Assembly: GCA_021772655.1 (NCBI GenBank)
Contig: JAJFLM010000055.1
Coordinates: forward strand, 1 to 37,336
Source: Deltaproteobacteria bacterium
Lineage (GTDB): Bacteria > UBA10199 > 2-02-FULL-50-16 > JAJFLM01
DNA: 37,336 nucleotides
Direction: 5' to 3'
Below, one piece after another: positions 5,279 through 33,581 of this stretch; within the stretch, counting starts at the first letter, position 1; each line of letters begins with the position of its first letter. The notes beneath the pieces were generated by a model. The model was given only the letters and a program-made list of their open reading frames with translations. It did no database searches and was not told the DNA's origin. The position numbers were made by a program, and so were the translations under genes.

Positions 5279-5308
5279 AGTTTTATCCTCCGCGTCTTGG
5301 GTTGCGTC

Positions 5309-7513: not shown

Positions 7514-7580
7514 CCTCCTAAAAGTCCCTTCTTGGGGCTCTATACATTGGACTAAATAAACTTGTACTCACTGAGTGTGA

Positions 7581-7607
7581 TTATCGGGGGGATTTGCAAA
7601 AAGTTGC
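7581..7607 (-). promoter_or_regulatory. Sigma-28-like promoter motif upstream of the 7513 gene
   Basis: Minus strand reads GCAACTTT-ttgcaaatccc-CCCGATAA; same blocks and 11-nt spacing as seven other sites in this window. Confidence 0.75.
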
Positions 7608-7759
7608 TAGGAAGGCCTGCTATTTAAAGATCTTACGAATTCTTTTATGAGTCAATTTTAGGGGATTTCAATAAAAGTGAGTTGTTTCATGCAGATAGAC
7701 CATTTTGACCGCTTATTTTTGCAGTCAGGGTCTCCTGAAATGAAACGTAATTATTATAA

Positions 7760-7795
7760 AAAAAGGGCGACTCTTTTATAGAGTCGCCCTTTTTA
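7760..7795 (-). terminator. Intrinsic terminator downstream of the large TSP3 gene
   Basis: AAAAGGGCGACTC-ttttata-GAGTCGCCCTTTT perfect stem, flanked by A/T tracts, just after the stop of 7818..11585 (-). Confidence 0.88.
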
Positions 7796-7817
7796 CTGAT
7801 ATGAAATCAGGGTTCCG

Positions 7818-11670: not shown

Positions 11671-12279
11671 GAGAAAAGGTATAAATCGTATTCCATTGGG
11701 GATATTTGAAAAAAATAAGTCATTTCAACTAGTTTCCATCGTAATGCCGGCTCTGTGAGCTGGGCGATGCAGGGGAGAGTGATAAATTTGCATAGCTGTC
11801 ACAGGGCTGAGCACTGTTTTGTGCCACGGCGGGCAGACGAAGGACTAAATAGTAAGTCATAACAGCAAGATATTTGTCATTGAGTCACGTGATGTAGTTA
11901 TCTCTAAAAAATTATATTTTATAGAGATGGTAGCGTTTTTTAATCTGACCGAACGGATTTTTCCAGTGACTCCTTAGTTTTTTGATGGGCAATCACCGGC
12001 TTTTTAAAAGAGTCGAAACTTAATCAATACTAAACAGTAGTTAAATAAGTGAGTTCAATCCGTTTTAACCCTTGCCATTGCTCGATAATTCTTCTGAAAG
12101 AGCCTGACAAAACCCGCTAAAACATTGGGGTTTATGCCTCTCGTGCTATTGTTATGTTGCTATTGCCCGACTTAAAGTGCTTCCCGGTGTATACAGTTGT
12201 AAGCTTTAGTAGAGAAAACTACGCAACATTTCTGAGCGTGCTGCGAATAGCTTGGCACTGGTTAGGTATGCAAATTTTA

Positions 12280-12306
12280 GCAACTTCTTCCCGGTGAGCC
12301 CGATAA
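12280..12306 (+). promoter_or_regulatory. Sigma-28-like promoter motif upstream of 12396 gene
   Basis: GCAACTTC-ttcccggtgag-CCCGATAA; spacing 11 nt. Confidence 0.75.
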
Positions 12307-12395
12307 GACTCTACGAGTAAGGCAAGCAAAATTTATTAATGGAAGTAAGTAGATTAACTTTTTTATAGAATAGAGATTTTCCAAGGAGGAATACC

Positions 12396-14471
12396 ATGGC
12401 CGATATGAACTTAGTTGTACAACGAGGAACAGGCGATAGCGCTACATTTAGTGGAGCTACTGCTCATAACGTTGATGACAACATGAGCGCAGAAACAGAA
12501 GCAGATTACCGTGCCATTGGCGCAGCGATCCCAAATATGACCGAAGATCCTGCAGTGACACATGTATATGTGGATGCCAATGGTAATGGTCAGCGTGACG
12601 ATGGCGAACGCGAAATTGATTTGGCAGCCATGTCAACAGCTCTGCGTACGGCTAATGCAGGTGCGGGTGGTACTGTTACTGTTGATGGTGCTGTTGAAGG
12701 CCCTACGCCTCCTCCTGCAGATCCTGCTCCAGCTGATGAAGCGACTCCAAGCCCTGATGCCGATCAACCTCTTGACGTTAACTTTGGTCTTGGCCTTGAA
12801 GCATTAGGTATTATTGGTTCAGGTGATGTCCCACATAGTGGTGGCGCCGGAAGCTTATTTGGACGCCTGACCTTGCGTGACCCAGATGTCCCTTGGATCG
12901 GTGGCGATCTTCGCTTAGGTCTTGGTGGCGGTCACATGGGCGCTGATTTTGGTTTGCCTAACGGCGAAACAGCAACCTCTGGTGTTGGCATGGTTGGTGG
13001 TAACCTCTACTTAGGGGCTAACATCATGCCTTTCTCAGCGCTACGCGGCTTAGATTTTGCTTTAGGACTTCAACTTGGTATTTATGGTTTATTGGGACAA
13101 GACGGTGCGACTGAAACGTTGCCTACCGATTGTGTTCCAGGTGAATTAGGCTTAGGTGAATGTGAGCCTCAAGCGAATGCCGGTTCTGTACCAACAGGTA
13201 CTGGCGGTGTTTATAATAGCACTCTCGGTAACTCAACCGGTGCTGATGGTGGTACGGTCTTAACCGTAGGACCTCGTATTGGAGCCGGTTACTCTTTCCC
13301 AATGGGCGATAGCCTCGGCGGACGAGTCGGTGCTTTTTATCAGCCAACTTGGATGAATGTGAACCCAGGTGATGCGGGCCATGGTGGCTTCAGTCAGTGG
13401 GGACATAACCTTGGCTTAAACTTTACTATGCAGTTTGGAAGAAGTTCGGTGACGCATCCACGTCCTACGACGCCGGTTGATAATGGTCCAGATGGTCCAG
13501 TATCTCCAGCAAACTCTCCTATCAATGTCGCTCAAGGTGATGATGCGACTGTCAATGCACCAAGTGGTGGATGGCCTGAATGGCCTGCGGGCTCTCGTGT
13601 GCTCGTACGCCATGCTGATGGCAGTACGGCAACACCTGATGTAGCTTTACCAACAGGTACAGGAACTTTAACTTTACCTGCTACTTCTTTAGAGCCAGGT
13701 CGTAACACTGTTGAAATTGGTGTCCCTGGAGCTACTCCATTGGTTACTGGTGAAGTGGTTGTTCCAACGGCTGCTCCTGCAGTGGACGCTGATGGTGATG
13801 TCACCGTCGGTAACTTCCGCTATCGTGGTTCTGTCCCAGCGCAAGCTGTGGCCGGACAAGGCGCGGACTTAGGTCGTATCACACCTCGCGTGGCTGTGCC
13901 TGCTGGAGTATCTGTAACCATCCGCGTTAATGAAGAAGTCGCAGCAACCATCACGGCTCCTGAAGGTGGTTTCCCAGCGAATGTGGCGATTCCATTAGTA
14001 CTGACTCAAGCTCAGTTGGATGCAATTTCACCACAACCAAGCGACAACGCTGTACAGATTCAAATTGGTTCGGTGGTCTTTACGAATACATTAAATATCA
14101 GACCACCAGTAGCAACGTTAACAAGTGCGACTCGTACCTCTTCGGCCACGCGTTATAGCAGTGATACTTTCACGCTTTCAGTGAACAGTGATCAAGCTAC
14201 CCGTGCCCGAGTGACTGTGGGAACGCATCATCAAGATTTCGACCTGACTACAGGTGCGAACAGTCTGTCTTTGACGGGCCGTCCTCGTGACTGGAATCAT
14301 GGTGGAGCTCGCGGTAGATACACAGCGATTCCTGTAACCATCCAACCTTTGGATGCTGAAGGGAACCCAACTGGTACGGCCATCACAGTCAGCCCAGACT
14401 CTCAGTTTAGACGCTCTGGCGGCGGTGGCGGCGGACGTAGTACTGGTACCATTACAGTCCCAGGCTTATAA
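12396..14471 (+). CDS. Uncharacterised protein: Ca-loop-like N-terminus, beta-barrel-like region, Ig-like C-terminal domains, no obvious signal peptide
   Basis: Strong SD (AAGGAGGAATACC-ATG). VYVDANGNGQRDDGERE resembles a calcium-loop motif; alternating G-rich beta strands (GGDLRLGLGGGHMGADFG, GGNLYLGANIMPF, LDFALGLQLGIYGLLG, GPRIGAGYSFPMGDSLGGRVGAFYQPTW, NLGLNFTMQFGR). Confidence 0.72.
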   Translation: MADMNLVVQRGTGDSATFSGATAHNVDDNMSAETEADYRAIGAAIPNMTEDPAVTHVYVDANGNGQRDDGEREIDLAAMSTALRTANAGAGGTVTVDGAVEGPTPPPADPAPADEATPSPDADQPLDVNFGLGLEALGIIGSGDVPHSGGAGSLFGRLTLRDPDVPWIGGDLRLGLGGGHMGADFGLPNGETATSGVGMVGGNLYLGANIMPFSALRGLDFALGLQLGIYGLLGQDGATETLPTDCVPGELGLGECEPQANAGSVPTGTGGVYNSTLGNSTGADGGTVLTVGPRIGAGYSFPMGDSLGGRVGAFYQPTWMNVNPGDAGHGGFSQWGHNLGLNFTMQFGRSSVTHPRPTTPVDNGPDGPVSPANSPINVAQGDDATVNAPSGGWPEWPAGSRVLVRHADGSTATPDVALPTGTGTLTLPATSLEPGRNTVEIGVPGATPLVTGEVVVPTAAPAVDADGDVTVGNFRYRGSVPAQAVAGQGADLGRITPRVAVPAGVSVTIRVNEEVAATITAPEGGFPANVAIPLVLTQAQLDAISPQPSDNAVQIQIGSVVFTNTLNIRPPVATLTSATRTSSATRYSSDTFTLSVNSDQATRARVTVGTHHQDFDLTTGANSLSLTGRPRDWNHGGARGRYTAIPVTIQPLDAEGNPTGTAITVSPDSQFRRSGGGGGGRSTGTITVPGL

Positions 14472-14561: not shown

Positions 14562-16448
14562 ATGGGATTAACATGTCAGCCACAGGAAGGGCAACTTCCA
14601 GTCGTATATAAAGTCAACCACTTGGCTACTCGATTGAGTGGCGAAACACCTGACGGTGTCTTTGAAGGTGGACAGGTTACCATAGATCTTGGTTCTCCTG
14701 AAGTACAACATTTAGAAGAGCGCATTGGATTCCGTAACGGAGCAAACAGACAATCAAATGCTTTGGCAACCCACTGGGGTAGTGTCAGAACTATGATTGC
14801 TGCCTTACAAGGTACTAGTGGTAATGTTATTACTCAGACCTCGTTGACGTCTGCAGTGACAGATGAAGATGCTCGTTTTAGAGCAGCTGTCTTATTGGAG
14901 TCGGCTTCTACTTTGATCAGTATTATGGGTCAAGAAACTACTTGTACAGAAATCCCACGTTTTGCGTTCACTCCTGATCAAATTCGTAGCAACAGAAATA
15001 CTTTAGGATCGGTGGCTAATCTTTATGTCGCCATGGGCGGTGAAGAAGATGATGGCGGTTTGCCTGATCCAAATCTTGCTGTGCCTGTGACGATTACGGA
15101 TGCTGATCTGGGTATGATTGATTCTTTAGTTGGTTATCAAGCAGATATTGAGCCGGATAGTGATTCTGATTCAGAACCAGGTTGGGCACTTTATGGCAAC
15201 TGGCACGCTGTTCGTGCCATGGTTGTTGCTCTGCGTACTGAAGCAAATGTTATTGATGGCACACAATTAGGCCAAATTGGTGATGCGGCTGCCAGACAAC
15301 GTGCCACAGTTATTGTTCAATCACTTACAGGTATGCTCCGCATTATGCGTAGCGAAGACTGGCAAGCCGGCCGTGCCTATGGCACAGAAGCAGCAGCACC
15401 AGCGGATCTAAACTTACCTACGACTTTGACAGCCAATGCTGATGGAGTCGTGAGCATTGCTGCCCCTGCCAGTGGATGGCCTGAAGGAATTAGTTATACG
15501 GTTGATGGTGGTGAGGAAACTGCTGTTACCGGGAATAATCCAATTTCTGTTACTTTAACGAGCGGTTCACATACTCTTGGTGTGAATGCTGGGACAGTAT
15601 CGCATAGTATTGAGGTGACAGTTCCTGACTCGACTCCAGTAGCTGACGCGGGAACCCCCCCAACTCCTGTCGCGAATACAGGTGGTACTGGTGGGGCTCC
15701 AGGAACAACGCCTCCAGCAACACCATCATCAGAAGGTTGGAGTACTGGTGAGATGATTGCTGGTGCACTCACATTCTTTGGCTTAGGAGCCGTGGCAACT
15801 TATTTTGGCCTGCGTAACCGCGGTAGCAGTAATGCGGCTCCAGCGCAAACGCCTCCGCCGGCAGCAACTCCGCCAGCGGAACCAGCTGCGCCTAAACGGA
15901 GTGCACGTCGTGCTCCAGCGGAACCAGCTCCAGTTGAGCCAGCTCCAGCGAAACCTGCAGCAGCAGCCCCAGCGGAACCAGCTCCAGCTGAGCCCGCAGC
16001 CGCTCCAGCTCCAGTAGCTCCGGCATCAGGTGTTGATGCTTTGGAAGCAAGTATAGCTCGTGACGCTGCGATTGAATCGATTCAAGAAGAATTAACCCTT
16101 CGTTTAGAAGCGGCAGCGCGTGAAGCGGGTGCGGATCCTAGTGTTTTCCGTGACCGTACATTTCAAGATCAGGTCAAAACCTTGGCAACTCAAACTTTTG
16201 AAGCTTGGGAAACTGATAACCGTCCTGTGGTCGAAACAGCAGGACGCTTTGAAGGTGCGATTCCTGAACGCTACCTTGACACTACCTTGGAACGTGCTCG
16301 TGATAATGCTCAACTTGAGCAGGCGACGCGTGAGGCATTCAGAGGTGCTCGTGGAGTCAGCCGTAGTGGCATCACTGCCGAAGAAGATACAGTACGCCGT
16401 TGGGCAGAATCCATGCGTGAAATGCGCCGGATTGCCGAACGCCGGTAA
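14562..16448 (+). CDS. Uncharacterised single-TM protein with duplicated N-terminal domain, Ig-like domain, Pro/Ala-rich linker and shared C-terminal domain (divergent copy)
   Basis: SD AGAGGAGAATGAAGAT-ATG; TM EMIAGALTFFGLGAVATYFGLRNRG; (A/P/E)-rich linker; C-terminus IPERYLD...TVRRWAESMREMRRIAERR. Confidence 0.75.
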   Translation: MGLTCQPQEGQLPVVYKVNHLATRLSGETPDGVFEGGQVTIDLGSPEVQHLEERIGFRNGANRQSNALATHWGSVRTMIAALQGTSGNVITQTSLTSAVTDEDARFRAAVLLESASTLISIMGQETTCTEIPRFAFTPDQIRSNRNTLGSVANLYVAMGGEEDDGGLPDPNLAVPVTITDADLGMIDSLVGYQADIEPDSDSDSEPGWALYGNWHAVRAMVVALRTEANVIDGTQLGQIGDAAARQRATVIVQSLTGMLRIMRSEDWQAGRAYGTEAAAPADLNLPTTLTANADGVVSIAAPASGWPEGISYTVDGGEETAVTGNNPISVTLTSGSHTLGVNAGTVSHSIEVTVPDSTPVADAGTPPTPVANTGGTGGAPGTTPPATPSSEGWSTGEMIAGALTFFGLGAVATYFGLRNRGSSNAAPAQTPPPAATPPAEPAAPKRSARRAPAEPAPVEPAPAKPAAAAPAEPAPAEPAAAPAPVAPASGVDALEASIARDAAIESIQEELTLRLEAAAREAGADPSVFRDRTFQDQVKTLATQTFEAWETDNRPVVETAGRFEGAIPERYLDTTLERARDNAQLEQATREAFRGARGVSRSGITAEEDTVRRWAESMREMRRIAERR

Positions 16449-16477
16449 TAAGAGCGACGCAAACATAATCTTTGCAG

Positions 16478-16510
16478 CAGCCGTCTGGTTTTCCAGGCGG
16501 CTGTTTTTTT
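16478..16510 (+). terminator. Intrinsic terminator after 14562..16448
   Basis: CAGCCGTCTGG-tttt-CCAGGCGGCTG stem (one G-T pair) followed by TTTTTTT. Confidence 0.9.
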
Positions 16511-16523
16511 ATGGGACTACAAA

Positions 16524-16558
16524 TGCCCTATATTAGGGCGTATGCCATGCGCCCCTAC
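16524..16558. repeat. Palindromic element, class II right half
   Basis: GCCCTATATTAGGGCGTATGCCATGCGCCCCTAC; intergenic, next to a terminator. Confidence 0.75.
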
Positions 16559-16617
16559 GGCGTTTAACATGTGGATCCATTTTGCCAATTTTCGTCAGTT
16601 CTTTTTTCATTCGCCAG

Positions 16618-16644
16618 GCAACTTTCGAAAGGATTCGCCGATAG
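16618..16644 (+). promoter_or_regulatory. Sigma-28-like promoter motif upstream of 16691 gene
   Basis: GCAACTTT-cgaaaggattc-GCCGATAG; lies inside the over-extended ORF 16571..20272, supporting a start at 16691. Confidence 0.75.
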
Positions 16645-16690
16645 CTTAAAGGATAGACGTAATTCTTTGAGGAGAGGACGAGCCCCAACC

Positions 16691-19600
16691 ATGAACGATT
16701 TTTGCCGTAGTATTTCACCGGACACTTTACAGAGCTATGGCTCCTTACGTGAGTTCTTAGTCCAGTCCAATGCACAGTGGAGCGAACAAGCTTTATTGAG
16801 TGCGGGGGCCCCGATGAGCTCTCTTGCAGCAGGAGAGGCGAATACCCATGATACGACCATTGATCCTGCGGCCGCTCAGTGTTTGCATGATTTGATTCAA
16901 AGTAGTGGCAACCCACAGTTGATCGCCGAATTAAGCCGTACCGAGACTTTACTCAGTCAGGCACAAGCCGGAGAAAATCTTAATGCGGTGCAAACAGAAC
17001 AACTTTTTACTTATTTAAGTTTAACCCATTATGTCAGCCACGACACTCCGGTATCTGAGCATAATCTCCTAGATCTGGGTATTGGTTTGGGGCTGGGGGT
17101 TGGTTTGACGACACTGGTTGTTTTAGGTTTACGTGAGATGCGGCGTACCAGGCAGTCCTCTACATCAGTAGCGCCGCCACCGTTGTCTGTTTCCACAGAG
17201 CCAGCAACGGTTGACCCGGCTAGCGTTTTGCCTGGGGATACGGGTGAGCGAAGAATTTCCTTTGAATGGCGTGAGGATAGCCCGATTCAACGTTTTGATA
17301 TTACCCTGGCGGCGACGTCAGATGAAAGACGTTTTGCAGGGAATACCTTTGTTGAAAATACTTCTTTTGAATTAGTTCGTGGTGACAATGATCAATTATT
17401 AGTCCGACGTTCCTATCGCGAAGACCATAGTATTGAACCGATGATTTATCGTGAAGGTCAGGTTTATAGCCTGCCGGAAAGTGCTTGGGTAGAATTGGGT
17501 GAACATGATGTGCTCGTTCAAATCCATATCGGTTCCGCAGATAATCAGGAGAATGGCACTTTGCGTGTTGAGCAGGCTGTACGGATTGCGCGCCATGAAA
17601 ATGGGGGCGCTTTTATTCCGGTTGATTTGGACTCCGTCGATAAAAACCTTTGTGTGGAGTTAGACCCCGTTGCTTTGACGGAAGTGCCACTATCCGTTCA
17701 GCAGCATGTCATGGAAATAAGCTATGCACGGACTGTCTTTGAGGCAGCGCGTATCTCAACGCTCCCTCAATCAGGACAACTATTGAGTACGAGTGAACGT
17801 GCGGCGGCGATGCATGCTTGGAATGACCTCGGTGAAGGGGCTCAGCAGCATTTCTTGGAGCGTAGCGGGATTGATTCCAGTGGTTATCGGGCGGAAATGC
17901 CCGTCTCGTTTGTTCGCGATTATCTGACGCATCGTTCGTCGGCGCTTATCCTGGAAGATTTCTCATTACGTGCGAGCCATAATCCAAATATTTTAGGAGC
18001 TGTGATGGCACAGCGTCTGCAAATCGAAGCGGGTTTTGGAAGTTATGGCGTTGAAAGCCAAGCTGAGACTGGCAGTCAAACAGTAGAAGGTCGCTTAAAT
18101 TTAAGTTTTAGAAATGCTGAAGACAGATTTTTGCTCAATGCTGATGCCGATTCATTAGTGAGTACGGGGATTCGTGAAGAGTCACAGGCGGAGATTCATA
18201 TGGATGCCGCTGGCCGCTTTCGGGTGCGTGGCACGCAGCAGCAAGGGGCTCGCCTTTATCGCGTGAATGATAGTTTGCAATGGAATTATACAGAATTACC
18301 AGAAGGCTTTGAAAGTGCGCCCGCCCTCCGTGAAGGGGATGTGCTTCGTGTAGGTGAAAATTCCTTTCGTGTTCATACGGGTTCCGGACAAGTTTTATTA
18401 ACGCCGCTTTCGGGGGCTGCTGATTTGGCTGCTGCGACGGAGTCTCATTTTGAGGCACCGGTCGTTCATGAGCATCTTGACCCGCAATGGGTGCGTAGCA
18501 TGCGTAGTCAGGTAGAACATTTTGATGAGTATCTCCGTACGGCAACAACGGAAGGTCAGCGGGTTCCCGACTCTGTATCTGATGCAATCCGTCGTCTGCA
18601 AACGCATATTGCTGATCGCCGACCGGTGATGCCAGGTTCCCATGATGCTCACGTTATCGCCTTAGCAGAAGAATTCTTGCCGGCCATGGCGGTGGAAGAT
18701 GGTGAGATTCTTTCTTCAGAGCCAAATATGTTTGCTGGATTTGATGCTGAGCGAGATTCCGTTGGTTTTGAGGAGGAGATTACGCAAGTACGTGATAAAA
18801 GTGAACTAATGGCTGAACATGAACGCATGATGCGTGAACGTCGTACGGGCTATGCCGAACGCATCGCTGTCTTAGAAGCGGGCTTAGGTTATGCTGAGCC
18901 GGCGAGCCAAGATTATCGTACTATTAGCGATGCGATCGACGCGCTCCGTGACGCCCATGGTTTGACTGGGGATGACCCTCGAGAAATTGATCCTGATGCG
19001 GCGGTGCATATTAGTGCGGCTGAAAGTTTGGTCGCGATTTTAAGTGAGTCATCACTGGATCAAGAGCTGGAAGGTGTTAGAGTTTTACAAGAAAAAGTTC
19101 GCGAGATGTTGCGTTATGAACCCGAGGGAGAAGTGCGGGACCGACTCAGTGAAGTTAATGAAATCGCGAAGGGCGCCTTAAGAGAGCAACGTGGTTTGCA
19201 ACCGCATGAGCAGGCAGTTGTGCATCGGATGCGGCAATTTGTTGATACTCTGATGGGTTCCGATGTCTATGAACGTTTTAGAGATACCTCCCGCAGTTTG
19301 CGTGAAAATCATTTGTCACCTGAGCGCCGGGCTCAATTTGAACAAGAATTACCCCGTCAGACACAGGCTTATACAGACTTTCGTGATAGCACGGTATTAA
19401 ATCATCCTTTCTTATTTGATATAGTCGAAGATGAGCGGCCTACGGTCGTTCCTCCACCACCACTGCCGAATGCGGCTGCTGAAACTCCAGCGGTGGCACC
19501 CGCGGTATTGACTCCTGTTGAGACGGCCCGTGCCCAGCGTGGTCAGATTGCACCCTTATTAACTTTAGTGCCGGACACCAATCCTGCCCGTGGTATCTTA

Positions 19601-20272
19601 ACGCGTGCCGATCAGTATTTATTTGAAGTACAAGATGGTCGACGTGAGAGTTTAAGTCCCGTGCAAGCACGCATGGTGACGATGGCGATGGATCTGGTAA
19701 CGCGTTTTGAAGGGAGTACTTCTTATCAAGACGTGAGACGGATCAATTCACAAATCCAAAGCTTGCAGGCGTCAGGAACAACTTCAGATAGCCAAGTAAG
19801 CCGCTTAGAAACTGATCGGGCTCCATTTGAAGCCGCGTTTGTACAGGAAGCCGATCAGATGGCACGCCAGGTCTTGCCGATGGAATTATTTTCAAGCGCT
19901 GAACAGACACCTGTAACGCCTCAAAGTATTGCTTTAGAAATAGTTGATCGTTGGCCGCAATTAGAAGGCCGTCTGTATGAGGGCGCTGTAACAGAAATGG
20001 CCAATCAGATTCATGGTGTGTGGGAACGTCGTGGTCGCCCGGGGTCTTCAGGGCCTGGTGCGATTGCTGGTTTGCCTTCGGAGCGCTTCGTGGAAGCGGC
20101 TATGAATATGATGCTGGAAGGCTATGAACAACGTTCTAATACCATGAGTCGTTTAGCTGAGAGTATCCGTCGTAGTGACCGCGGACCACGTGCCGAGCGT
20201 GATACGACTTCCTTGGCACGTCGGATTGTAGAAGCCTCTCGACGAAGTGTGGCTATCGGTGGACGCCGCTAA
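16691..20272 (+). CDS. Uncharacterised TM protein with FHA-like beta domain(s) and shared C-terminal domain
   Basis: ORF 16571..20272; start moved to ATG 16691 (MNDFCRSISPD) because the promoter-like motif lies at 16618-16644 and an SD-like GAGGAGAGG precedes it. TM LLDLGIGLGLGVGLTTLVVLGLREMRR; FHA-like ALREGDVLRVGENSFRVH; C-terminal SIALEIVDRWPQLEGR...GLPSERFVEAAMNMMLEGYEQRSNTMSRLAESIRRSDRGPRAERDTTSLARRIVEASRR. Confidence 0.75.
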   Translation: MNDFCRSISPDTLQSYGSLREFLVQSNAQWSEQALLSAGAPMSSLAAGEANTHDTTIDPAAAQCLHDLIQSSGNPQLIAELSRTETLLSQAQAGENLNAVQTEQLFTYLSLTHYVSHDTPVSEHNLLDLGIGLGLGVGLTTLVVLGLREMRRTRQSSTSVAPPPLSVSTEPATVDPASVLPGDTGERRISFEWREDSPIQRFDITLAATSDERRFAGNTFVENTSFELVRGDNDQLLVRRSYREDHSIEPMIYREGQVYSLPESAWVELGEHDVLVQIHIGSADNQENGTLRVEQAVRIARHENGGAFIPVDLDSVDKNLCVELDPVALTEVPLSVQQHVMEISYARTVFEAARISTLPQSGQLLSTSERAAAMHAWNDLGEGAQQHFLERSGIDSSGYRAEMPVSFVRDYLTHRSSALILEDFSLRASHNPNILGAVMAQRLQIEAGFGSYGVESQAETGSQTVEGRLNLSFRNAEDRFLLNADADSLVSTGIREESQAEIHMDAAGRFRVRGTQQQGARLYRVNDSLQWNYTELPEGFESAPALREGDVLRVGENSFRVHTGSGQVLLTPLSGAADLAAATESHFEAPVVHEHLDPQWVRSMRSQVEHFDEYLRTATTEGQRVPDSVSDAIRRLQTHIADRRPVMPGSHDAHVIALAEEFLPAMAVEDGEILSSEPNMFAGFDAERDSVGFEEEITQVRDKSELMAEHERMMRERRTGYAERIAVLEAGLGYAEPASQDYRTISDAIDALRDAHGLTGDDPREIDPDAAVHISAAESLVAILSESSLDQELEGVRVLQEKVREMLRYEPEGEVRDRLSEVNEIAKGALREQRGLQPHEQAVVHRMRQFVDTLMGSDVYERFRDTSRSLRENHLSPERRAQFEQELPRQTQAYTDFRDSTVLNHPFLFDIVEDERPTVVPPPPLPNAAAETPAVAPAVLTPVETARAQRGQIAPLLTLVPDTNPARGILTRADQYLFEVQDGRRESLSPVQARMVTMAMDLVTRFEGSTSYQDVRRINSQIQSLQASGTTSDSQVSRLETDRAPFEAAFVQEADQMARQVLPMELFSSAEQTPVTPQSIALEIVDRWPQLEGRLYEGAVTEMANQIHGVWERRGRPGSSGPGAIAGLPSERFVEAAMNMMLEGYEQRSNTMSRLAESIRRSDRGPRAERDTTSLARRIVEASRRSVAIGGRR

Positions 20273-20486
20273 TAGTATCTGTAGAATCTGTATGCATAAG
20301 GATACGGATTTTAGGCGAGATGTTCTTTGGGGTAATATTCCAAGTATCTATTATTATTGATGAATTTTAGGTTTTTCGTGGAAAGCTAAAGAGTGTGCTT
20401 GTCTTGGTGTCTTTGTTGAAAAGATTGGATAGCTCCTTTTGCTTTGATGTGCCGAAGAGAGTTTTAGCACATGCCAAGGAAATAAT

Positions 20487-23027
20487 ATGCCCCCACCTAT
20501 GCCTTTGACTCCCGTTTTGACTTCAATGCCGGCCGTCACCGGAACGATGACCCATGTCGTCGGGATGGCTTTGGATTCACAACTTGTCACGCAGACTTTT
20601 GCGGTAGGGGCACGGCATGCCGTGCCCCTACATTCTTCCCCCGATGTGTATGGTACGGCTGCGACAACCCTCCCCGCCAATGAGAGTACACACACTGGAA
20701 GTAGGATTCGCATCCCTCGTCCGGGTGCCGAAGTGTATGAGCTGACCATAGGCCGTGCTTACAACCAAGCGGGTTATATTGGTTTGATGGGTCAGGCTGA
20801 GCCGGCGGATTTAATTTCTGTGTCACGGAATCACGTGCGCTTAAGAATTTCTCCCGGGGGTCACTATTGGTTGAGTGATGCCGGCAGTTTGAATGGTACG
20901 ATGATCTACCGTGATGATGTGTTGTATGGCGGTCGCCAAGAAATTCCGGTCAACCCGCATGTCAATGTTTCGTTATGTGATGGTGATATTATTCGCATGG
21001 GCCGGGCGTATTTTCGCTGGTCTCTCCAGCAAGGTCAGCCTTATTTAATTAATGTGAAGGGAGTAGATCAGGCCGCCAGTGTGCGCTTGATGTCAGAACG
21101 TTCGGTTCCTTTGGTTGCGGAACAACCTTTATTAGAGCGTCTTCAGGCTATGCAAGGCGAGGTGGTGGAACTTTTCACAGTAGGCGACAAAGAGAAATTA
21201 GTCGGCCGCGTAGATCATATTGATGGGCAGGGTAAGGGTGCGGTCGTGCATTTGCGAGATAACGGTTGGAGTCAGTCGGTCGCCTTAAGTGATATTTTAA
21301 CTGTGCGGGGGCGTGCCGAACCTTTAGTGACGGATTATATCCATCCGAATGTGGCGCATCCACAGTTTCAAGATCGTTCTATCAATATTTCAGGCACGGA
21401 TGGCAGTGGTAAAGTTGTCCTGGTTGATTTTGCTGATCCACGACTCACTCATTTTTTAGAGACGCATATGCGTCCTATCCGTCATTCTTTAGCTGCGCAG
21501 ACTCTTTCAGAGCGCCAAGCCGCCGAGGCTGCTTGGCGCATTGTACGTGACTATGTCCCCTATGATCGGGCGCGTCTGTATATGTCGCTGCCCAATCAAA
21601 TGTATCGCTTAGGCGATTTTATCGAACGCGGTGTGTGTAATGAACGCGGCATGCTCTTGCAAGTAGCCTATCAATTTATTGGTTTGAATTCTAGAATGGA
21701 GAAGGGTCCTTTTATGGGAGGACGCCATGCATGGACGCGAGCCCATGTGAGTGATGAACACGGGCAAGCTTTTGAACTGATTCTTGACCCGCAACGTGAC
21801 TCTGTCATTGATGTCAATCGCGATGACTTTGCGGTCTTTTATAATGATGATTCTTCTCCCTTTGCGCAGCTAAAGGCAGCGACCATTGCCATTGGTATTG
21901 GCTCGAATTTTTCTGGAGCTGCAGTGGAACACTTGCAAGCCGAAGGTTTAAATCCTGATGCGTTATTAGATAATTTGGTGGAGCTGCGTTCTCAGCGTTT
22001 AGGCATAGAGTACGGGCCGGTGACTTGGGAAGAGATTCAAGCCCTGCGTCGTGAGCAGATGCATAATAACTTATGGATTATTGCCAGCGATGCGCGCCAT
22101 CAAATAATCAGTATTAACCATGCCTATGAAGCCTTAGCTGCAGATGCGCGCATACATGAGCAAAACTTGGCTTTAGCACTCTATGAACGGTTGACGACGA
22201 CGGAACGTCACTCCTTGTGGTTGGCGAATGGGAGTGAGCCGGATGGACGTTTGCCACAACGTTTTATCGATTATTATCGTGATTTACGGTTGCGTTTACA
22301 TGATTCCGGGCAGTCGGCCTTTGGTGACCCGCTTGAGCTTAACCAGATCTTAGCTGAGTTTGGTGGTGTTGTTGAGATAAGTGTTCAAAATATAACTGAT
22401 GAAATGCGTACACGTTATCCGCTATTGGCTGAACCTGTGTTTGAAAACTATGTCATAGAATTATCAGAACAAGTGATGGCTCGTTGGCAAAATGTAGGTG
22501 GTGCTTTGGAGCTGAATGCACGTGGTTTGTTTGATGTTCCAGAACAACTTTTTGAAGCCGTGGTCGCCGACTTTGCACTGCAACTTGAAAGTCGTCAGTC
22601 ACCCACATTAAACCGCGTTGCGGCAAGTATCCGGGCTTCAGATCGCGGTACGCGACGTGAGCGGGGTATTTTTGATGTCCGTCACATTGGTTTGGAATTA
22701 CAAAGTCGCTTCCCGGTTTTTACCGAGGCTCATTATCAAGCGATTACTCAAGCGCTAGAGGTAGAAATTTTTACTGCCTGGGACCAGGCCGGTCGCCCTT
22801 TAGATGAGGGGCGTCCTTTGGTGCCAGGTGTTGTGCCAGAGCGCTTCATTAATCAAGCTGTGAATAGTTTGCTGGCAGGCTTTGAGCAACGTTCATCCAC
22901 CATGCATCGGGTCGCAGCAAACATCCGTTTTAGTGACCGTGGTGTGCGTGCGGACCGCGACAATTCAGAACTCAATCGAATGATTTTGCGGATGATACGT
23001 GAATCGGGCCGTATTGTGCCGGTTTAA
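20487..23027 (+). CDS. FHA domain + SH3/Sm-like + transglutaminase-like protein with two tandem copies of the shared C-terminal domain
   Basis: FHA core ISVSRNHVRLRISPGGHYWLSDAGSLNGTMIY...CDGDIIRMGRAYFRW; transglutaminase-like RGVCNERGMLLQVAYQFIGLNSRM...GGRHAWTRAHV...FELILDPQRDS (Cys/His/Asp); C-terminal repeats with RxAASIRASDRGTRRERG and RVAANIRFSDRGVRADRD. Confidence 0.82.
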   Translation: MPPPMPLTPVLTSMPAVTGTMTHVVGMALDSQLVTQTFAVGARHAVPLHSSPDVYGTAATTLPANESTHTGSRIRIPRPGAEVYELTIGRAYNQAGYIGLMGQAEPADLISVSRNHVRLRISPGGHYWLSDAGSLNGTMIYRDDVLYGGRQEIPVNPHVNVSLCDGDIIRMGRAYFRWSLQQGQPYLINVKGVDQAASVRLMSERSVPLVAEQPLLERLQAMQGEVVELFTVGDKEKLVGRVDHIDGQGKGAVVHLRDNGWSQSVALSDILTVRGRAEPLVTDYIHPNVAHPQFQDRSINISGTDGSGKVVLVDFADPRLTHFLETHMRPIRHSLAAQTLSERQAAEAAWRIVRDYVPYDRARLYMSLPNQMYRLGDFIERGVCNERGMLLQVAYQFIGLNSRMEKGPFMGGRHAWTRAHVSDEHGQAFELILDPQRDSVIDVNRDDFAVFYNDDSSPFAQLKAATIAIGIGSNFSGAAVEHLQAEGLNPDALLDNLVELRSQRLGIEYGPVTWEEIQALRREQMHNNLWIIASDARHQIISINHAYEALAADARIHEQNLALALYERLTTTERHSLWLANGSEPDGRLPQRFIDYYRDLRLRLHDSGQSAFGDPLELNQILAEFGGVVEISVQNITDEMRTRYPLLAEPVFENYVIELSEQVMARWQNVGGALELNARGLFDVPEQLFEAVVADFALQLESRQSPTLNRVAASIRASDRGTRRERGIFDVRHIGLELQSRFPVFTEAHYQAITQALEVEIFTAWDQAGRPLDEGRPLVPGVVPERFINQAVNSLLAGFEQRSSTMHRVAANIRFSDRGVRADRDNSELNRMILRMIRESGRIVPV
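20604..20631. repeat. Palindromic element, class I, inside the FHA/transglutaminase gene
   Basis: GTAGGGGCACGGCATGCCGTGCCCCTAC, perfect 28-bp palindrome, translated as VGARHAVPL(H). Confidence 0.92.
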
Positions 23028-23052
23028 AATTGATGATTTCAATGGATACCTC

Positions 23053-23121
23053 GTAGGGGCGATCTGTCGGTCGCCCTTCGTGTTCCCATATTATTTAGGG
23101 CGAATGCCATTCGCCCCCTAC
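23053..23121. repeat. Palindromic element, class II double hairpin, intergenic
   Basis: GTAGGGGCGATCTGTCGGTCGCCC-spacer-GGGCGAATGCCATTCGCCCCCTAC. Confidence 0.9.
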
Positions 23122-23151
23122 CAAATTAATTGACCTCGCCCCAAACTTGAC

Positions 23152-23178
23152 GCAACTTTGCATTCTAAGTGCCGATAA
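23152..23178 (+). promoter_or_regulatory. Sigma-28-like promoter motif upstream of 23199 gene
   Basis: GCAACTTT-gcattctaagt-GCCGATAA; spacing 11 nt. Confidence 0.8.
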
Positions 23179-23198
23179 CCACACTGGAGTCTTATATT

Positions 23199-24266
23199 AT
23201 GCCACCACCAGAAGCTATTAGTAGTAGTTCCGTGAGCCCGTCTGTGCCCGTAGCCCTTACAGGGAATTCGACACCCGTGGCTCAAGTAAATACGCCTTCC
23301 GTTGGTGAAAGTTTTTATCAGCCAGCAGTGGCGGCCGGGCTTCCTTTAATGTCGCAGGTGAATCTCTCTCAGTTGCCCATTGCTCAAGTGAATCCTTTAG
23401 CATCGCCGCCTCCAATTGATACGAGTTGGATGGATTTATTGAATGGGTCAACTCACACCATTATAGTCGCTGGCATTGTGTTGATGCTAGGTTTTTTTAA
23501 TATTTCGTTGGCCATTCGAAACCGTAACCGCAGGATAGCTGAACAAAGAATGCTTGCTGAGGAAGACGAAGCGGCTCGTCCTGAAAGAGAACGTGAAGCG
23601 AGAGAAATAGCGGAGGCGATACAAAAAGAAATTCAAAAAAAACCTACAATTGAATGGGAGCGCATCAGGCTGTTCCACATGTCAGGGGACAATGTGCGTA
23701 TTCACACTAAAGATGGTGAGGTTTTTGAAGGGCGTGTTGTAGAGATAGATGAGACACGTGACGGACGGCGTACGTTTGAATTGAGGACGGAGTCCGCAAG
23801 TATGGTATTTTCTTCTGATCAAATGAAAACCGTTAGAACTGTGCCGAATACTGCAGTTGTGGCGCCTTCAGAAGTTTCTCCAGTAGTTAGTCCACGAGCC
23901 GCGTCCGTTCGACCGGAGGCGATTGCGATAGAATTAGTCGATCGTTGGCCCGTCTTAGAGGGTCGAGAATATCAAGATACTGTTTCATCTTTATCCCAAG
24001 AGTTTGCTCAAGAGTGGGAACGCAATCGCAGTTCGTATACAGAAAGTACGGGGGTTATCGAAGGACTGCCCGCAGAACGTTTTATGCAAGAGGCGATGGA
24101 GCGTACTTTAAGTTCTTATGAACAGCGCTCATTAACGATGCAGCGTGTGGTAGAGGGGATTCGTTCCAGTGACCGCGGGACGCGTGCTGAACGGGGTACG
24201 GAAGATTTAATGCGCCGTTTAGCCGAATCGGCGCGTGAGGCTGGCCGTATTGGCGCGCGGCGTTAA
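23199..24266 (+). CDS. Single-TM protein with charged coil, SH3/Sm-like domain and shared C-terminal domain
   Basis: ORF 23169..24266 begins at a GTG overlapping the -10-like box; ATG at 23199 (MPPPEAISSS) preferred. TM HTIIVAGIVLMLGFFNISLAIRNRNRR; DNVRIHTKDGEVFEGRVVEIDETRDGRRTFELRTESASMVFSSDQMKTV; C-terminal IAIELVDRWPVLEGREYQ...GLPAERFMQEAMERTLSSYEQRSLTMQRVVEGIRSSDRGTRAERGTEDLMRRLAESAREAGRIGARR. Confidence 0.8.
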   Translation: MPPPEAISSSSVSPSVPVALTGNSTPVAQVNTPSVGESFYQPAVAAGLPLMSQVNLSQLPIAQVNPLASPPPIDTSWMDLLNGSTHTIIVAGIVLMLGFFNISLAIRNRNRRIAEQRMLAEEDEAARPEREREAREIAEAIQKEIQKKPTIEWERIRLFHMSGDNVRIHTKDGEVFEGRVVEIDETRDGRRTFELRTESASMVFSSDQMKTVRTVPNTAVVAPSEVSPVVSPRAASVRPEAIAIELVDRWPVLEGREYQDTVSSLSQEFAQEWERNRSSYTESTGVIEGLPAERFMQEAMERTLSSYEQRSLTMQRVVEGIRSSDRGTRAERGTEDLMRRLAESAREAGRIGARR

Positions 24267-24317
24267 ACTGTAATTTCCATTTTTTCCATTTCTTGGAAAA
24301 AATTAACAAACTTTGGC

Positions 24318-24344
24318 GCAACATCCGCGTTTTCAGGCCGATAA
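24318..24344 (+). promoter_or_regulatory. Sigma-28-like promoter motif upstream of 24482 gene
   Basis: GCAACATC-cgcgttttcag-GCCGATAA; spacing 11 nt. Confidence 0.75.
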
Positions 24345-24481
24345 CAATTACAGAGTAGAATATTTAATTGTCTAGGAATCGACAAACTCTAGGTGTTCAT
24401 ACGCATTAATAAATACCTAATTGAGGGACTTGTGAATTTATTAACACTGAATACAGACGCATTCGCGATGCGGGAGGTCTT

Positions 24482-27400
24482 ATGACGCCTCCGCAGATAG
24501 TTCCATTCAGTACCACACAACTGAATCGCGAAATGCCGCCATGTACCGATGAACAAGCGGCGGCGAGGGAGTGCGTCCAACCTCTAGACCCTACCAGCGT
24601 TCCTTTATGTGACCCGATCAATGATTCTTCTTTGATGGGTGTGCAACGTATTTTGGTGCAAGAAAGTGGTGGACGTTTAAGCGCCACGTTTCAACCGGAT
24701 TTATCTGTTGCGCCCACAGCTGGACAGCGGGATCCAAATGTAGGTGAGTTGGGGCAAATTTCTGGTTCATTCAGTAGGCCCATTGCCATAGAGGATTTTG
24801 CCGAATCGATTATCCCCAATTATACCCAGCAAATCACCGCTTTGCGGACTCGCAGTCAAAGTGAAAGTTGGGACCAAGAGCGACTGACGCGTGAAGTGAC
24901 GCAGATGACCATGCGTATGCTCGAGGCAGCGTTGGTTCCGGAAGGATCTAACCTAACCACGAGTGATATTAATTTGGCTACTACAGGACATGGCCGTCAA
25001 GGCTATGGCATTTGCTTAGGTCGACCTGAGGGTGAAGGGGAAAGTGCGACGCGTCCCGCTTATATGTACTTGTATGACCGTCGTTTAGATCAATTGTGTG
25101 TCGATGGCGAAGGTCGTCCGACCATGTCTGTTCCCACACTGCCGTTGAATAATATTCAGCCCCATGAAGCTTTAAGTTTGATTGAACTGGGCGGCATTGA
25201 TGAAGGGCATTATTGTTTTCCACGGCGGCGGCGTAATTCAATCAATATTGCCGCGCTGTTACAAACGAGTACAGAAGGTATTATTAGTGAGCTGACGGGT
25301 GAGAGTCATGAGAATATTATTAATTTAGATCGCCCTTTAGAAATGCAGCATAGCAGCATGTATTTTGAAAATGACCATGCTTTAGCTATTGCTGAATCTT
25401 TGCGGATGTTTTCTAGAAATGCTTTTTCTGGTGAACAAAGAGCCGAAACCAGTATCCAAATGCAGCGCGATGGGCAGACGTTGGCACGTGATGGCCAAGC
25501 TATGGCACGAGATCAAGCTAATAACTTAAAGTGGTTATATGTAATGATGGGCTTGCAGATGTATTTAAGTATGAGAATGTCAGGCTCACAAATGATTCAT
25601 CGCTTTGAAAGTGTTGTTGGAGGTGTGCTTAAAACAACATTTCTTCGTACGCCTGCATTAGCCGTTAGAGGAGATTTCCGACAATTGGCTAGGGAATGGA
25701 AAGGTGTCTTTGATTTTAGAAGTATGATTCTGACCGATTTAACCGATAAGGTGCGCGATTCAAACAATCCGTTGAGTGAAACGTCTCGCCGTATCTTAGC
25801 AGGCTTTGACCGCGGCCAATCACCACATATCATTCTTTCAGGACCATCAGGTTCTGGTAAAGGTTATGCGATGTCTGCGGCTGCAGGTGCTGCGACTAGA
25901 GGTGAAACAAGTGTTGAGGCATTTGAAGGGCAGCGTCCACGTTATGTGCAGATCAGTGCCAGTGCCATCGTACGTGAAGCGGGATCCTGGCAGAACCGTG
26001 CACAAGAACTATTCTTTAAAGCGATTGACGGACTTTCTGGGAATAGACCAGTTATTGTCCATTTAACAGAGGCTGATAGTTTTGCTTCGGCGGGTGTGGA
26101 TGCCGGTAATAGACCCCTTAACTTACTTCCTAAACTTTATGAAATTACTGAAGGGACGAATCCTAAGTATAGAAACTTACATTTTGTATTTGATTCTACC
26201 CGTTGGCAGACCATTTTTGAAAATGGCCCTGATTTACTTCGGAGAACCGCGTTTGTTGAAAACGCGCCGCCATTGCCGCAGGACTTGCGTTCAGCTGTGC
26301 AGGCCCGTGCGAATGGTGCCGGTGTGGAATCATTTATTATGTCACGGCGTTATGAGCGGGTGAATATCACTCCCGCAGCGATAGATGCTGTTGTGGCCTT
26401 AGGTGGTTATGAAGCAGGGGCCCCACCAAGTGCTCACAATACCGTTTTGGATGCCGTAGTAAATAGTGCGCTAAAGTTGAGAGGCAGTGGGCGCTCATCA
26501 TCTTCTACTGTTGATGTGATGCCAGAAGACGTGATTCGCGTTGTTTCTGAAGCGACGGGACGTACTGTTCCTACGGTGCAAGCAGAATTAGCCACGTTGT
26601 TAGAGGGTGGTGTAGAGAATAATCCACGTATCCAAGAACGGATTATTGAGACCTTTTATAGAGAGTATACAAACCCTCGTGGTGGTGTAATTAATCCGTT
26701 AAACCCTAATGCAGAGCCGTCAACGACGGGTGCTGCTAATGCAAGTCAACCGAGAGAGGTGGCTACGGAATCATCGCCACCGCCGCAAAGTACCGAGCCA
26801 CGACCTTCTGAGTCCACCCCAGGAACTCCACGTGTTGTCACCGAAAGCGCCGTTCAATCGGAAGCTAGTCGTATTGCTCAAGAACTTTCAACAGATGGAC
26901 GCCGCATTCAATTCAGTGAAAGCGTGATCCGTGCGGTGGCAAATCGCTTAAGTGGTTCTAGTCAAGGTTCGTTGAATGATCTTAATCGAGAAATGGGTCG
27001 TTTTCTGCGGATGGCTGGGGAAGAAGCGATGAGCCAGCATGTAGAGATTGTGACCGAGGCTCATTTCACCAGTGCTTATAATGCTTGGAGCGCCCCTCGT
27101 AATCATGCCCGTAGTTTCTTTACCTCAGGCACTCCCGAGGCCCACGCTTTCTGGCAAGGGCAAGAGCCCGGGATGAGAGAATTGATTGTCGATCAGATGG
27201 TTGAGGCCCTGCAGGCGGAAGAGCGGAGCACGGGTTCTAGTATGAATCGCGGTGAATTTTTCCAACGTTATTTTGAAAGGAATTTACAGACGAGTGGCCC
27301 AGCCTCTGTGATGCCAGCACAGGGTTTTACCCCAGCACCTCCAGCAGAGAGCCCTGCAACCCCGCCGGCTGAAGAAGCGCGCCCAAGTAGTCCGGCTCCT

Positions 27401-27850
27401 GCCGAAGCCGCACTTACTCCTGAGGTCCCGGCTCAACCCGAGGCCGTGGATGTGGCAGAAGTTGATCGCTTGGTTTCAAGTTTGCCTGAGACCCGACGCG
27501 ATGCTTTGGCTCAAGAGCATATTAGTTTAGAACTAGAAAGTCGTTTTCCTGATGCCCTTAGTGGTCGTGAGTTTGCGGATCAACGGGGTGTCTTAGCCCA
27601 GCAGATTGTGGAGTTATGGCGTACTGAGGGTCGCCCGGGTAGTACGGGGTTTGTATCAACGCTGCCACCAGAACGTTTTATTGAAAGCGCCTTACAAAAC
27701 CTTGAAGCGCGTTCTGCAACTTTTGAACGCATGGTCAGAGAAATCCGTCGTGCCGATGTCGGCCCCCGTGCCGAGCGTGAGACCGCTGACTTCTTACGTC
27801 GTTTAGCGGAATCTTCCCGTGAAGCTGCGCGTGTCGGTGGACGGCGTTAA
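24482..27850 (+). CDS. AAA+ (ClpB/ClpA-like) domain protein with Cys-containing N-terminus and shared C-terminal domain; ATPase motifs degenerate
   Basis: P-loop-like HIILSGPSGSGKGYAMS at 25841-25864; Walker-B-like VIVHLTEAD; sensor-1-like LHFVFDSTR; Clp-like PEDVIRVVSEATGRTVPTVQAEL; C-terminal ISLELESRFPDALSGREF...LPPERFIESALQNLEARSATFERMVREIRRADVGPRAERETADFLRRLAESSREAARVGGRR. Confidence 0.82.
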   Translation: MTPPQIVPFSTTQLNREMPPCTDEQAAARECVQPLDPTSVPLCDPINDSSLMGVQRILVQESGGRLSATFQPDLSVAPTAGQRDPNVGELGQISGSFSRPIAIEDFAESIIPNYTQQITALRTRSQSESWDQERLTREVTQMTMRMLEAALVPEGSNLTTSDINLATTGHGRQGYGICLGRPEGEGESATRPAYMYLYDRRLDQLCVDGEGRPTMSVPTLPLNNIQPHEALSLIELGGIDEGHYCFPRRRRNSINIAALLQTSTEGIISELTGESHENIINLDRPLEMQHSSMYFENDHALAIAESLRMFSRNAFSGEQRAETSIQMQRDGQTLARDGQAMARDQANNLKWLYVMMGLQMYLSMRMSGSQMIHRFESVVGGVLKTTFLRTPALAVRGDFRQLAREWKGVFDFRSMILTDLTDKVRDSNNPLSETSRRILAGFDRGQSPHIILSGPSGSGKGYAMSAAAGAATRGETSVEAFEGQRPRYVQISASAIVREAGSWQNRAQELFFKAIDGLSGNRPVIVHLTEADSFASAGVDAGNRPLNLLPKLYEITEGTNPKYRNLHFVFDSTRWQTIFENGPDLLRRTAFVENAPPLPQDLRSAVQARANGAGVESFIMSRRYERVNITPAAIDAVVALGGYEAGAPPSAHNTVLDAVVNSALKLRGSGRSSSSTVDVMPEDVIRVVSEATGRTVPTVQAELATLLEGGVENNPRIQERIIETFYREYTNPRGGVINPLNPNAEPSTTGAANASQPREVATESSPPPQSTEPRPSESTPGTPRVVTESAVQSEASRIAQELSTDGRRIQFSESVIRAVANRLSGSSQGSLNDLNREMGRFLRMAGEEAMSQHVEIVTEAHFTSAYNAWSAPRNHARSFFTSGTPEAHAFWQGQEPGMRELIVDQMVEALQAEERSTGSSMNRGEFFQRYFERNLQTSGPASVMPAQGFTPAPPAESPATPPAEEARPSSPAPAEAALTPEVPAQPEAVDVAEVDRLVSSLPETRRDALAQEHISLELESRFPDALSGREFADQRGVLAQQIVELWRTEGRPGSTGFVSTLPPERFIESALQNLEARSATFERMVREIRRADVGPRAERETADFLRRLAESSREAARVGGRR

Positions 27851-28125: not shown

Positions 28126-29457
28126 ATGTCTGGATGTAATGATTTTAACGCAACGGCGATGCCGAGTAACGCAAATCTATGTGTGGTGAATGAAGGCTCG
28201 GGCTTTCAAGGCTATGTCGCCAATACTGAAGGTGTGATTACAGGCCACATGGCGCCCGATAGTTCGCCGGGTGCCCCAGCAGGTGCCACTCAATACGTTG
28301 AAGGTGGCGATACCCCTTATCTTGGTTTGCAATTAGGTCGCTGTCGTACGGCGAGTGGTATGGTGACACGCCATGATGTGCGTGTGGTCGGACAGAATTT
28401 TTCAGCAGAAGCGATCAATCATTTATATTCATCACTTAACTTAGCTCCGGGACATGATCCCAATTACACCGTGACCAATGATGCTTATTCGACGCAACGC
28501 GGTGATATCTGTGTGAACATCGATCAGGCCCATCAGACCTCACAATTGATTCAAAGTTTGATTGATGATGTTCCTGAAGGGATGACCGATGAGCAACGTG
28601 ATACTTTAGTGGAAGCCTTGCAAGTTCATTACCGCCGTGTGCATGGTCAAGAACCACCGCGAACAACGGGTCAAGCAGCGTCGCATTATTTTAATGAATA
28701 TATTGTTCATGTGCTTTCCTTCTTGATTGGTTTGCCTTTAGTCTTTGGTGTTCTGGCCCCATTATTTGGTAAGTGGGCCGGACTTGGCGGACATGGTGGT
28801 GGCGGTGGACCGACACCTCCTGCCGGTGGCGCGGGTGTTAGTTCTGGTGAAGTTAATTCTGCCGACGTGGCGCGTGGTTTAGCGGCTTTAAGTGCTTTAG
28901 GAAAAAGTTTAACACCCCCTGCACCAGAAGGTGAAACTGCGACGGAAGGTGAAGGTGAAACATCATCAGACGCGGAAGCCCAAACCAATGCCCGTATTGC
29001 AACAGTAGAAGGCTACCCAGTATTCTTGCCGACTCACTTAGGTCACTTAGCAGATACCTGTTATAGTTTAGAGCAGTTTGTAAGTGCCGCCGGTGGTAAT
29101 TGGAGTGAGATTGTTGCTTCGGCTCAAAGCATGTCGACAGAATTGATGACACCAAATATGTCATTTTCTCCAGTCAGCGAAGCCGCTCCGGTTGCTGAAG
29201 CGGCTCCGGCCAATGGTTTAAATCCAGTCGCAGCCGGCATCTTACAATACCACGCGCAAACAGGTGGCCTGACGGTTGATTCACCAGCAGGTGCTGCTGT
29301 ACCGGGTTCACCGACGGCCTTAACCCCTGGTTCCACGCCCGTGTTGATGACGCCGCAACCATTGTCCGGTGTGAATGTACGCGTACCGACAGTGGAAATG
29401 CCGACAATTCGTGTCCCGTCTTTAAGACCGGTGCCGCGGATGGTTCCAGTTTTATAA
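28126..29457 (+). CDS. Uncharacterised TM protein with glycine-rich linker
   Basis: SD AAGGAGGAACTGAT-ATG; TM IVHVLSFLIGLPLVFGVLAPLFGKW followed by GGHGGGGGPTPPAGGAG; no recognised family. Confidence 0.72.
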   Translation: MSGCNDFNATAMPSNANLCVVNEGSGFQGYVANTEGVITGHMAPDSSPGAPAGATQYVEGGDTPYLGLQLGRCRTASGMVTRHDVRVVGQNFSAEAINHLYSSLNLAPGHDPNYTVTNDAYSTQRGDICVNIDQAHQTSQLIQSLIDDVPEGMTDEQRDTLVEALQVHYRRVHGQEPPRTTGQAASHYFNEYIVHVLSFLIGLPLVFGVLAPLFGKWAGLGGHGGGGGPTPPAGGAGVSSGEVNSADVARGLAALSALGKSLTPPAPEGETATEGEGETSSDAEAQTNARIATVEGYPVFLPTHLGHLADTCYSLEQFVSAAGGNWSEIVASAQSMSTELMTPNMSFSPVSEAAPVAEAAPANGLNPVAAGILQYHAQTGGLTVDSPAGAAVPGSPTALTPGSTPVLMTPQPLSGVNVRVPTVEMPTIRVPSLRPVPRMVPVL

Positions 29458-33532: not shown

Positions 33533-33581
33533 ATTAAATAAATAGTTCTTAATTAGTCTACAAACGGGAGTTGTGACGATT

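Follow-up and report, generated by a model that had tools for sequence, protein, structure and literature searches.

The window analysed here spans positions 1 to 37,336 of contig JAJFLM010000055.1 (assembly GCA_021772655.1) of a Deltaproteobacteria bacterium, whose assembly comprises 474 contigs and is 93% complete with 7.8% contamination. It carries a row of plus-strand genes, here called A to K, in which five consecutive genes (B to F) encode six copies of a shared domain (Table 1). The C-termini of the five proteins are linked by all-against-all BLASTP, and the whole-protein alignments cover mainly these C-termini: E values are 1e-31 for C (listed start 16571) against E (43.6% over 156 amino acids, aa), 6e-21 for C against F, 3e-19 for D against E and 1e-9 for B against E. 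Leave-one-out profiles, in which five copies must recover the sixth, recovered all six (E 1e-8 to 8e-38). The first-pass annotation, made from the sequence alone, had described such a domain in these genes; its copy positions agree with the in-frame alignment, and its choice of the B copy as the most diverged is borne out by the weakest leave-one-out match. The profile search of the genome that it had proposed finds exactly six copies, none outside the window.

The domain is ∼95–120 aa long, with a core of ∼95 aa common to all copies. The length of ∼115 aa given earlier falls within this range but does not describe the core, and the final helix is not universal: it is present in B, C, E and F, where it ends ...RR-COOH, and missing from the copies of a second genome of the same class (G006). 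Across 14 copies from the window and G006, W38 and E58 are invariant and R94 is nearly so, while E10, L11, R14, P16, G92 and R97 are frequent. AlphaFold, run on the 14 copies with the E copy modelled, gives a confident all-helical bundle of five main helices (mean pLDDT 93.9, pTM 0.86), thus supplying the fold prediction suggested at first pass. Pfam yields no match beyond chance for the 14 copies and no enzyme family; NCBIfam, PADLOC, PHROGs and PDB sequences yield no match for the domain; and Foldseek of the model finds nothing significant in either PDB (best E 1.2, best probability 0.12) or viral models (best E 1.0). These sequence and fold searches rule out identity with a known family, in agreement with the initial impression that the domain belongs to no named one. 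The shared module is a real, previously undescribed domain without known relatives. Its confidently predicted fold, which recurs across a gene cluster, offers a direct way into a membrane assembly that is uncharacterised and belongs to a lineage hardly studied so far. Two other candidates were rejected: (i) a defence system, for which PADLOC gave only a weak TRIP13 (AAA) match; and (ii) a phage or plasmid origin, as gene I has no relative in viral contigs or plasmids, nor the domain any in viral contigs.

The domain had also been called Arg-rich. With 12–20 Arg per window copy the description is numerically correct, but it misleads, because net charge per copy is only −6 to +4 and the Arg stands in lysine-free sequence: the domain is Arg-rich because it lacks lysine, not because it is basic. 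Nucleic-acid binding through these arginines might be suggested by their number, by the SH3/Sm-like stretch seen by eye in E and by two very weak RNA-binding folds among the chance Foldseek matches. Such a role is highly improbable given the near-zero charge, the lack of a significant fold match and an Arg abundance that is explained by exclusion of lysine throughout the cluster.

Table 1. Genes of the cluster, copies of the shared domain and a paralog pair on another contig of the same genome (window positions unless a locus is given; TM, transmembrane).
Feature	Position	Strand	Description
Gene A	12396..14471	+	Lacks signal peptide and lysine; barrel/Ig-like by eye; G006 has a syntenic homolog
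Gene B	14562..16448	+	N-terminal part without signal peptide, one TM segment, low-complexity linker, domain
Gene C	16691..20272	+	TM segment, FHA-like region common with D, domain; listed open reading frame starts at GTG 16571
Gene D	20487..23027	+	No TM segment; FHA, transglutaminase-like region, two domain copies
Gene E	23169..24266	+	TM segment, SH3/Sm-like stretch (by eye), domain
Gene F	24482..27850	+	N-terminal part with six Cys, weak TM segment, AAA module, domain
Gene G	28126..29457	+	Cys-containing N-terminal part, one TM segment, no domain
Gene H	29744..31522	+	Paralog of I, J and K, one hydrophobic family (BLASTP, alignment); no domain
Gene I	31742..33532	+	As H
Gene J	33573..35477	+	As H
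Gene K	35528..37108	+	As H
Domain, B	16077..16445	+	C-terminal, most diverged; leave-one-out E 1.3e-8; alignment
Domain, C	19913..20269	+	C-terminal; leave-one-out E 5e-35; alignment
Domain D1, D	22377..22685	+	Internal, first of tandem pair; leave-one-out E 2e-12; alignment
Domain D2, D	22686..23024	+	C-terminal, second of pair; leave-one-out E 7e-27; alignment
Domain, E	23904..24263	+	C-terminal, AlphaFold-modelled copy; leave-one-out E 8e-38
Domain, F	27503..27847	+	C-terminal; leave-one-out E 1e-25; alignment
C185 paralog pair	L133:6788-9952 and L133:2849-6028		Tandem, 71.5% identical over 1053 aa

The proteins that carry the domain differ in architecture, as the first-pass annotation had noted, but they are not otherwise unrelated: C and D have an FHA region in common (BLASTP E 0.005), and upstream of the domain BLASTP also pairs D with E, along a stretch judged SH3/Sm-like by eye. 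Pfam confirms the FHA domain of D (3.6e-6) and the AAA module of F (6.2e-5), whereas the labels transglutaminase-like (D), SH3/Sm-like (E) and barrel-like (A) were assigned by eye, with no Pfam hit for the D and E regions. In D, a Cys384, His414 and Asp434 triad is recognised by eye and Pfam gives no transglutaminase match; in G006 the corresponding protein has neither the Cys nor the His. The AAA module of F contains GPSGSGKG and VIVHLTE, which depart from the active-ATPase Walker A (GxxxxGK[ST]) and Walker B (hhhhDE) motifs in that the Walker A Ser/Thr and Walker B Asp are absent; the same residues are absent from the AAA module of the gene at F's place in another genome, G037 (L029:2647-5826). 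Judging from these motifs, the AAA modules of F and of its G037 counterpart may be inactive as ATPases. With catalytic residues missing from F and from the G006 protein that corresponds to D, it is plausible that these parts serve as scaffold and not as enzymes. Ribosome sites are good at the assigned starts of B, G and F, and C probably starts at ATG 16691 rather than at GTG 16571. The AlphaFold model of the H–K family (pLDDT 53) is not interpretable. An Ala/Ser/Thr/Leu-rich start of ∼40 aa, unlike a classical signal peptide, occurs in several lineage-specific proteins, including the N-terminus of D and proteins at L105:1-1089, 5402-6043, 6153-7178 and 12132-13202 and L049:3-1211.

Proteins B, C, E, F and G have a ∼100–400-aa N-terminal part without signal peptide, followed by a single hydrophobic segment, which in F is weak and was recognised by eye. 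In B, C and E the segment is immediately followed by Arg residues, and the domain copy lies C-terminal to it. Cysteines are concentrated before the segment, with 15 of 17 in the window proteins (p 2e-6). Across twelve such proteins from four genomes the count is 49 of 54, in a part that spans 42% of residues (p 7e-14, with related proteins treated as independent). The position of the TM segment, the flanking Arg and the Cys placement together suggest that the domain copies lie on the cytoplasmic side. This pattern fits an N-terminus that is outside and possibly disulfide-bonded, and a domain-bearing C-terminus that is cytoplasmic.

We ran the domain profile over 384 genomes (47 of the same class plus others) and found it in two, this one and G006, which belongs to a different family of the class. 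A wider motif search with gene I and with the domain across 85,462 species genomes, sensitive to close relatives only, gave no relative. G006 contains eight clear copies and one partial copy on two contigs, in tandem, internal, N-terminal or C-terminal positions. Gene order on the first contig (C56) matches that of the window: opposite-strand TSP3-repeat proteins, A-like and B-like genes, a gene for a 1356-aa protein with four full domain copies, G-like genes and H–K-like genes. The second contig (C15) encodes a ∼2300-aa protein with the domain near its start, FHA (5e-7) and a weak, sub-threshold PP2C_2 match (0.0023), and a 923-aa protein with the domain at its end, FHA (2e-7) and a HopA1-family match (2.9e-15). 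In G006 the domain is thus not confined to one gene row. Nor is it strictly a C-terminal tag: the extreme C-terminal position claimed for it holds for five of the six window copies but not for D1, and G006 has internal and N-terminal copies.

These positions also bear on the idea that the conserved ...RR-COOH end makes the domain a signal for localisation, secretion or turnover, recognised at the very C-terminus. The placement of most window copies and the similar ...RR ends of four proteins accord with such a signal, but the G006 copies that are internal, tandem or N-terminal do without the final helix, a folded core of ∼95 aa is large for a signal, and most host proteins already have a TM segment; we consider this explanation unlikely. 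Distribution bears likewise on whether the copies are duplication relics among neighbouring genes, with common descent and no common function. Adjacency favours recombination, and the copies are strongly divergent and confined to two of 384 genomes. However, two families of the class have retained the domain and agree in gene order, it recurs with signalling domains at the second G006 locus, and its W, E and R are conserved in nearly all copies, which leaves the relic explanation quite improbable.

Relatives of H–K without the domain are present in genomes G001, G037 and G014. Beside them lie a G-like gene in G001 and AAA-like and G-like genes in G037, recognised by likeness of layout rather than by BLASTP, and the G014 match stands alone among unrelated genes; weak profile matches in G019, G032 and G046 were disregarded. 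These relatives and their similar neighbours suggest that the cluster's core probably extends beyond the domain.

Three TSP3-repeat proteins adjoin the cluster in both genomes (window 4397-11585, minus strand; L016:1-10147). They end in a Gly-Cys, hydrophobic, Arg-rich tail that resembles a sorting signal, and one of them matches MtsC above cut-off.

We favour, with moderate confidence, a reading in which the domain is a cytoplasmic, all-helical docking or adaptor module that assembles B to F at the membrane. The evidence for it is that (i) the six copies lie in five consecutive, co-directional genes and eight occur in G006 with the same gene order; (ii) the helical model is confident and has no enzyme-like match; (iii) FHA occurs in D, and FHA, weak PP2C and HopA1 matches occur at the second G006 locus; (iv) the copies of B, C and E come after a TM segment with the Arg and Cys pattern described above; and (v) W38, E58 and R94 are conserved. 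The copies would bind one another or one common partner, so that the cytoplasmic tails of B, C, E and F would be gathered with the soluble FHA protein D into a membrane-associated assembly, which probably also takes in A, G and H–K. A multivalent scaffold would be in keeping with the tandem copies of D and with the G006 protein that has four full copies. Ser/Thr phosphorylation may control assembly or activity, as suggested by FHA and by the PP2C-like and HopA1-like regions of G006; relatives of the HopA1-like domain act on phospho-Ser/Thr. The first-pass annotation had proposed a docking, assembly or targeting tag. Docking or assembly appears to be the most economical role for a domain shared by co-encoded proteins of differing architecture, while targeting fits less well. 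Several observations weigh against docking: there are only two carriers; H–K relatives without the domain show that it is not essential to every such cluster; the tree of the 14 copies is unresolved, with strong divergence between copies and genome groups that are neither single nor rejected; and, with intergenic gaps of 40–286 bases, a single transcript is not proven.

The cluster is also conspicuously poor in lysine. Proteins A, I, J and K (526–691 aa) contain no Lys and 30–35 Arg each, and B, C, D, E, F and G contain 2–9 Lys against 15–116 Arg; H is less affected (13 Lys, 30 Arg). The background is 4.8% Lys over 227 genes, a sample of ∼8% of the genome, and the lysine-poor open reading frames in it are, by eye, mostly antisense, contaminant or acidic-repeat ones. 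In frame, AAA/AAG make up 0.6% of the cluster against 4.8% of the background, whereas other frames are near normal and G+C is equal. This excludes base composition as the cause and indicates that selection acts on the protein. Among cluster homologs (window 12396-37108; L016, L017, L028), Lys/Arg counts in G006 are 1/55 for A, 1/51 for B, 0/49 for one I-type protein and 0/14 for G1, and those in G001 are 1/37 for G and 1/28 for H; the G037 homologs are not lysine-depleted.

Paralogs of depleted proteins may keep their lysine. On contig C185 of the window's own genome, a 1055-aa protein (0 Lys, 69 Arg) adjoins a paralog with 55 Lys and 79 Arg (Table 1). Of the 54 aligned Lys sites three carry Arg instead, and Ser, Gln, Asn, Thr and Glu are the main substitutes; the lysine-free protein keeps 53 of the 79 Arg and 21 of the 26 Glu. 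Likewise, paralogs of A and B outside the G006 cluster have ordinary lysine content. Lysine loss is specific to particular gene copies. A lysine-free 222-aa protein (L133:6109-6774) neighbours the C185 pair. The further A-like genes of G006 (L130, L131 and L132, on contigs C32, C79 and C36), which have ordinary lysine content, are mostly paired with B-like genes, and their N-termini share a ∼65-aa module (GAIDT..EA...YT..QL..IRD) that is also found in L133. In G001, a 916-aa protein (L083:13155-15905) with a barrel-like start, many CxxCH, 1 Lys against 58 Arg and no evident signal peptide adjoins multihaem cytochromes.

Pupylation is an unlikely cause of the lysine loss, as the Pup ligase (PF03136) was not detected in four genomes of the class (G000, G001, G006 and G037) while a control genome matched. 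A general outer-membrane habit is not supported, since the BamA-type protein of this genome has 51 Lys and 49 Arg. Escape from cross-linking by the transglutaminase-like part of D is weakened as an explanation because A, B and the I-type protein of G006 are nearly lysine-free even though the corresponding part there is without the Cys and the His. Possibilities are lysine-directed modification or cross-linking, a lysine-specific protease and production under lysine shortage. Because lysine-free proteins and their lysine-bearing paralogs occur in the same genomes, the purge is a clean natural experiment, its cause open to testing rather than guessing. We tentatively suggest, as a possibility that falls short of being probable, that the cluster encodes an undescribed envelope-spanning machine without signal peptides, particular to one little-known lineage, in which the helical docking domain joins the cytoplasmic parts and lysine has been removed by protein-level selection. 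If true, this would imply lysine-directed chemistry, modification or a supply constraint of an unknown kind where or when the machine works.

Three known systems invite comparison. Lysine deserts are long lysine-free protein stretches conserved in evolution (PMC10665810, PMC10169902). The cluster resembles them in having long, conserved lysine-free stretches but differs in that the loss extends over entire membrane proteins of a single cluster, in a genome of ∼49% G+C with no Pup ligase detected, and close paralogs keep lysine. The FHA domains of D and of the G006 proteins recall FHA phospho-signalling of the TagH type in the type VI secretion system and with PP2C. NCBIfam TagH (VI_FHA) matches a G006 protein at 2.2e-8 with 34 bits against a cut-off of 120, a match that reflects the FHA domain, and no component of that secretion system was matched among the proteins scanned.

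The closest likeness is to effector-associated domains (EADs), terminal domains of small size and mostly helical make-up that recur in neighbouring genes and are proposed to couple parts like with like (PMC7159879, PMC8195603), and to bacterial Death-like domains. As in these, the domain is small, non-enzymatic and helical (95–120 aa), and it is repeated in adjacent genes with different partners, here FHA (D), AAA (F) and TM proteins (B, C and E). EADs are terminal; five of the six window copies are C-terminal, and the G006 copies are partly internal and tandem. Differences from EADs are that (i) the 14 copies match no Pfam family, although coverage of all EAD families by the Pfam copy used was not checked; (ii) no vWA, MoxR, VMAP, GTPase or STAND core was found in Pfam, NCBIfam and PADLOC scans; and (iii) the host proteins are membrane-anchored, with internal tandem arrays in G006. 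Because it has neither the sequence family nor the core components, we do not file the domain as an EAD; by analogy, it may work like one.
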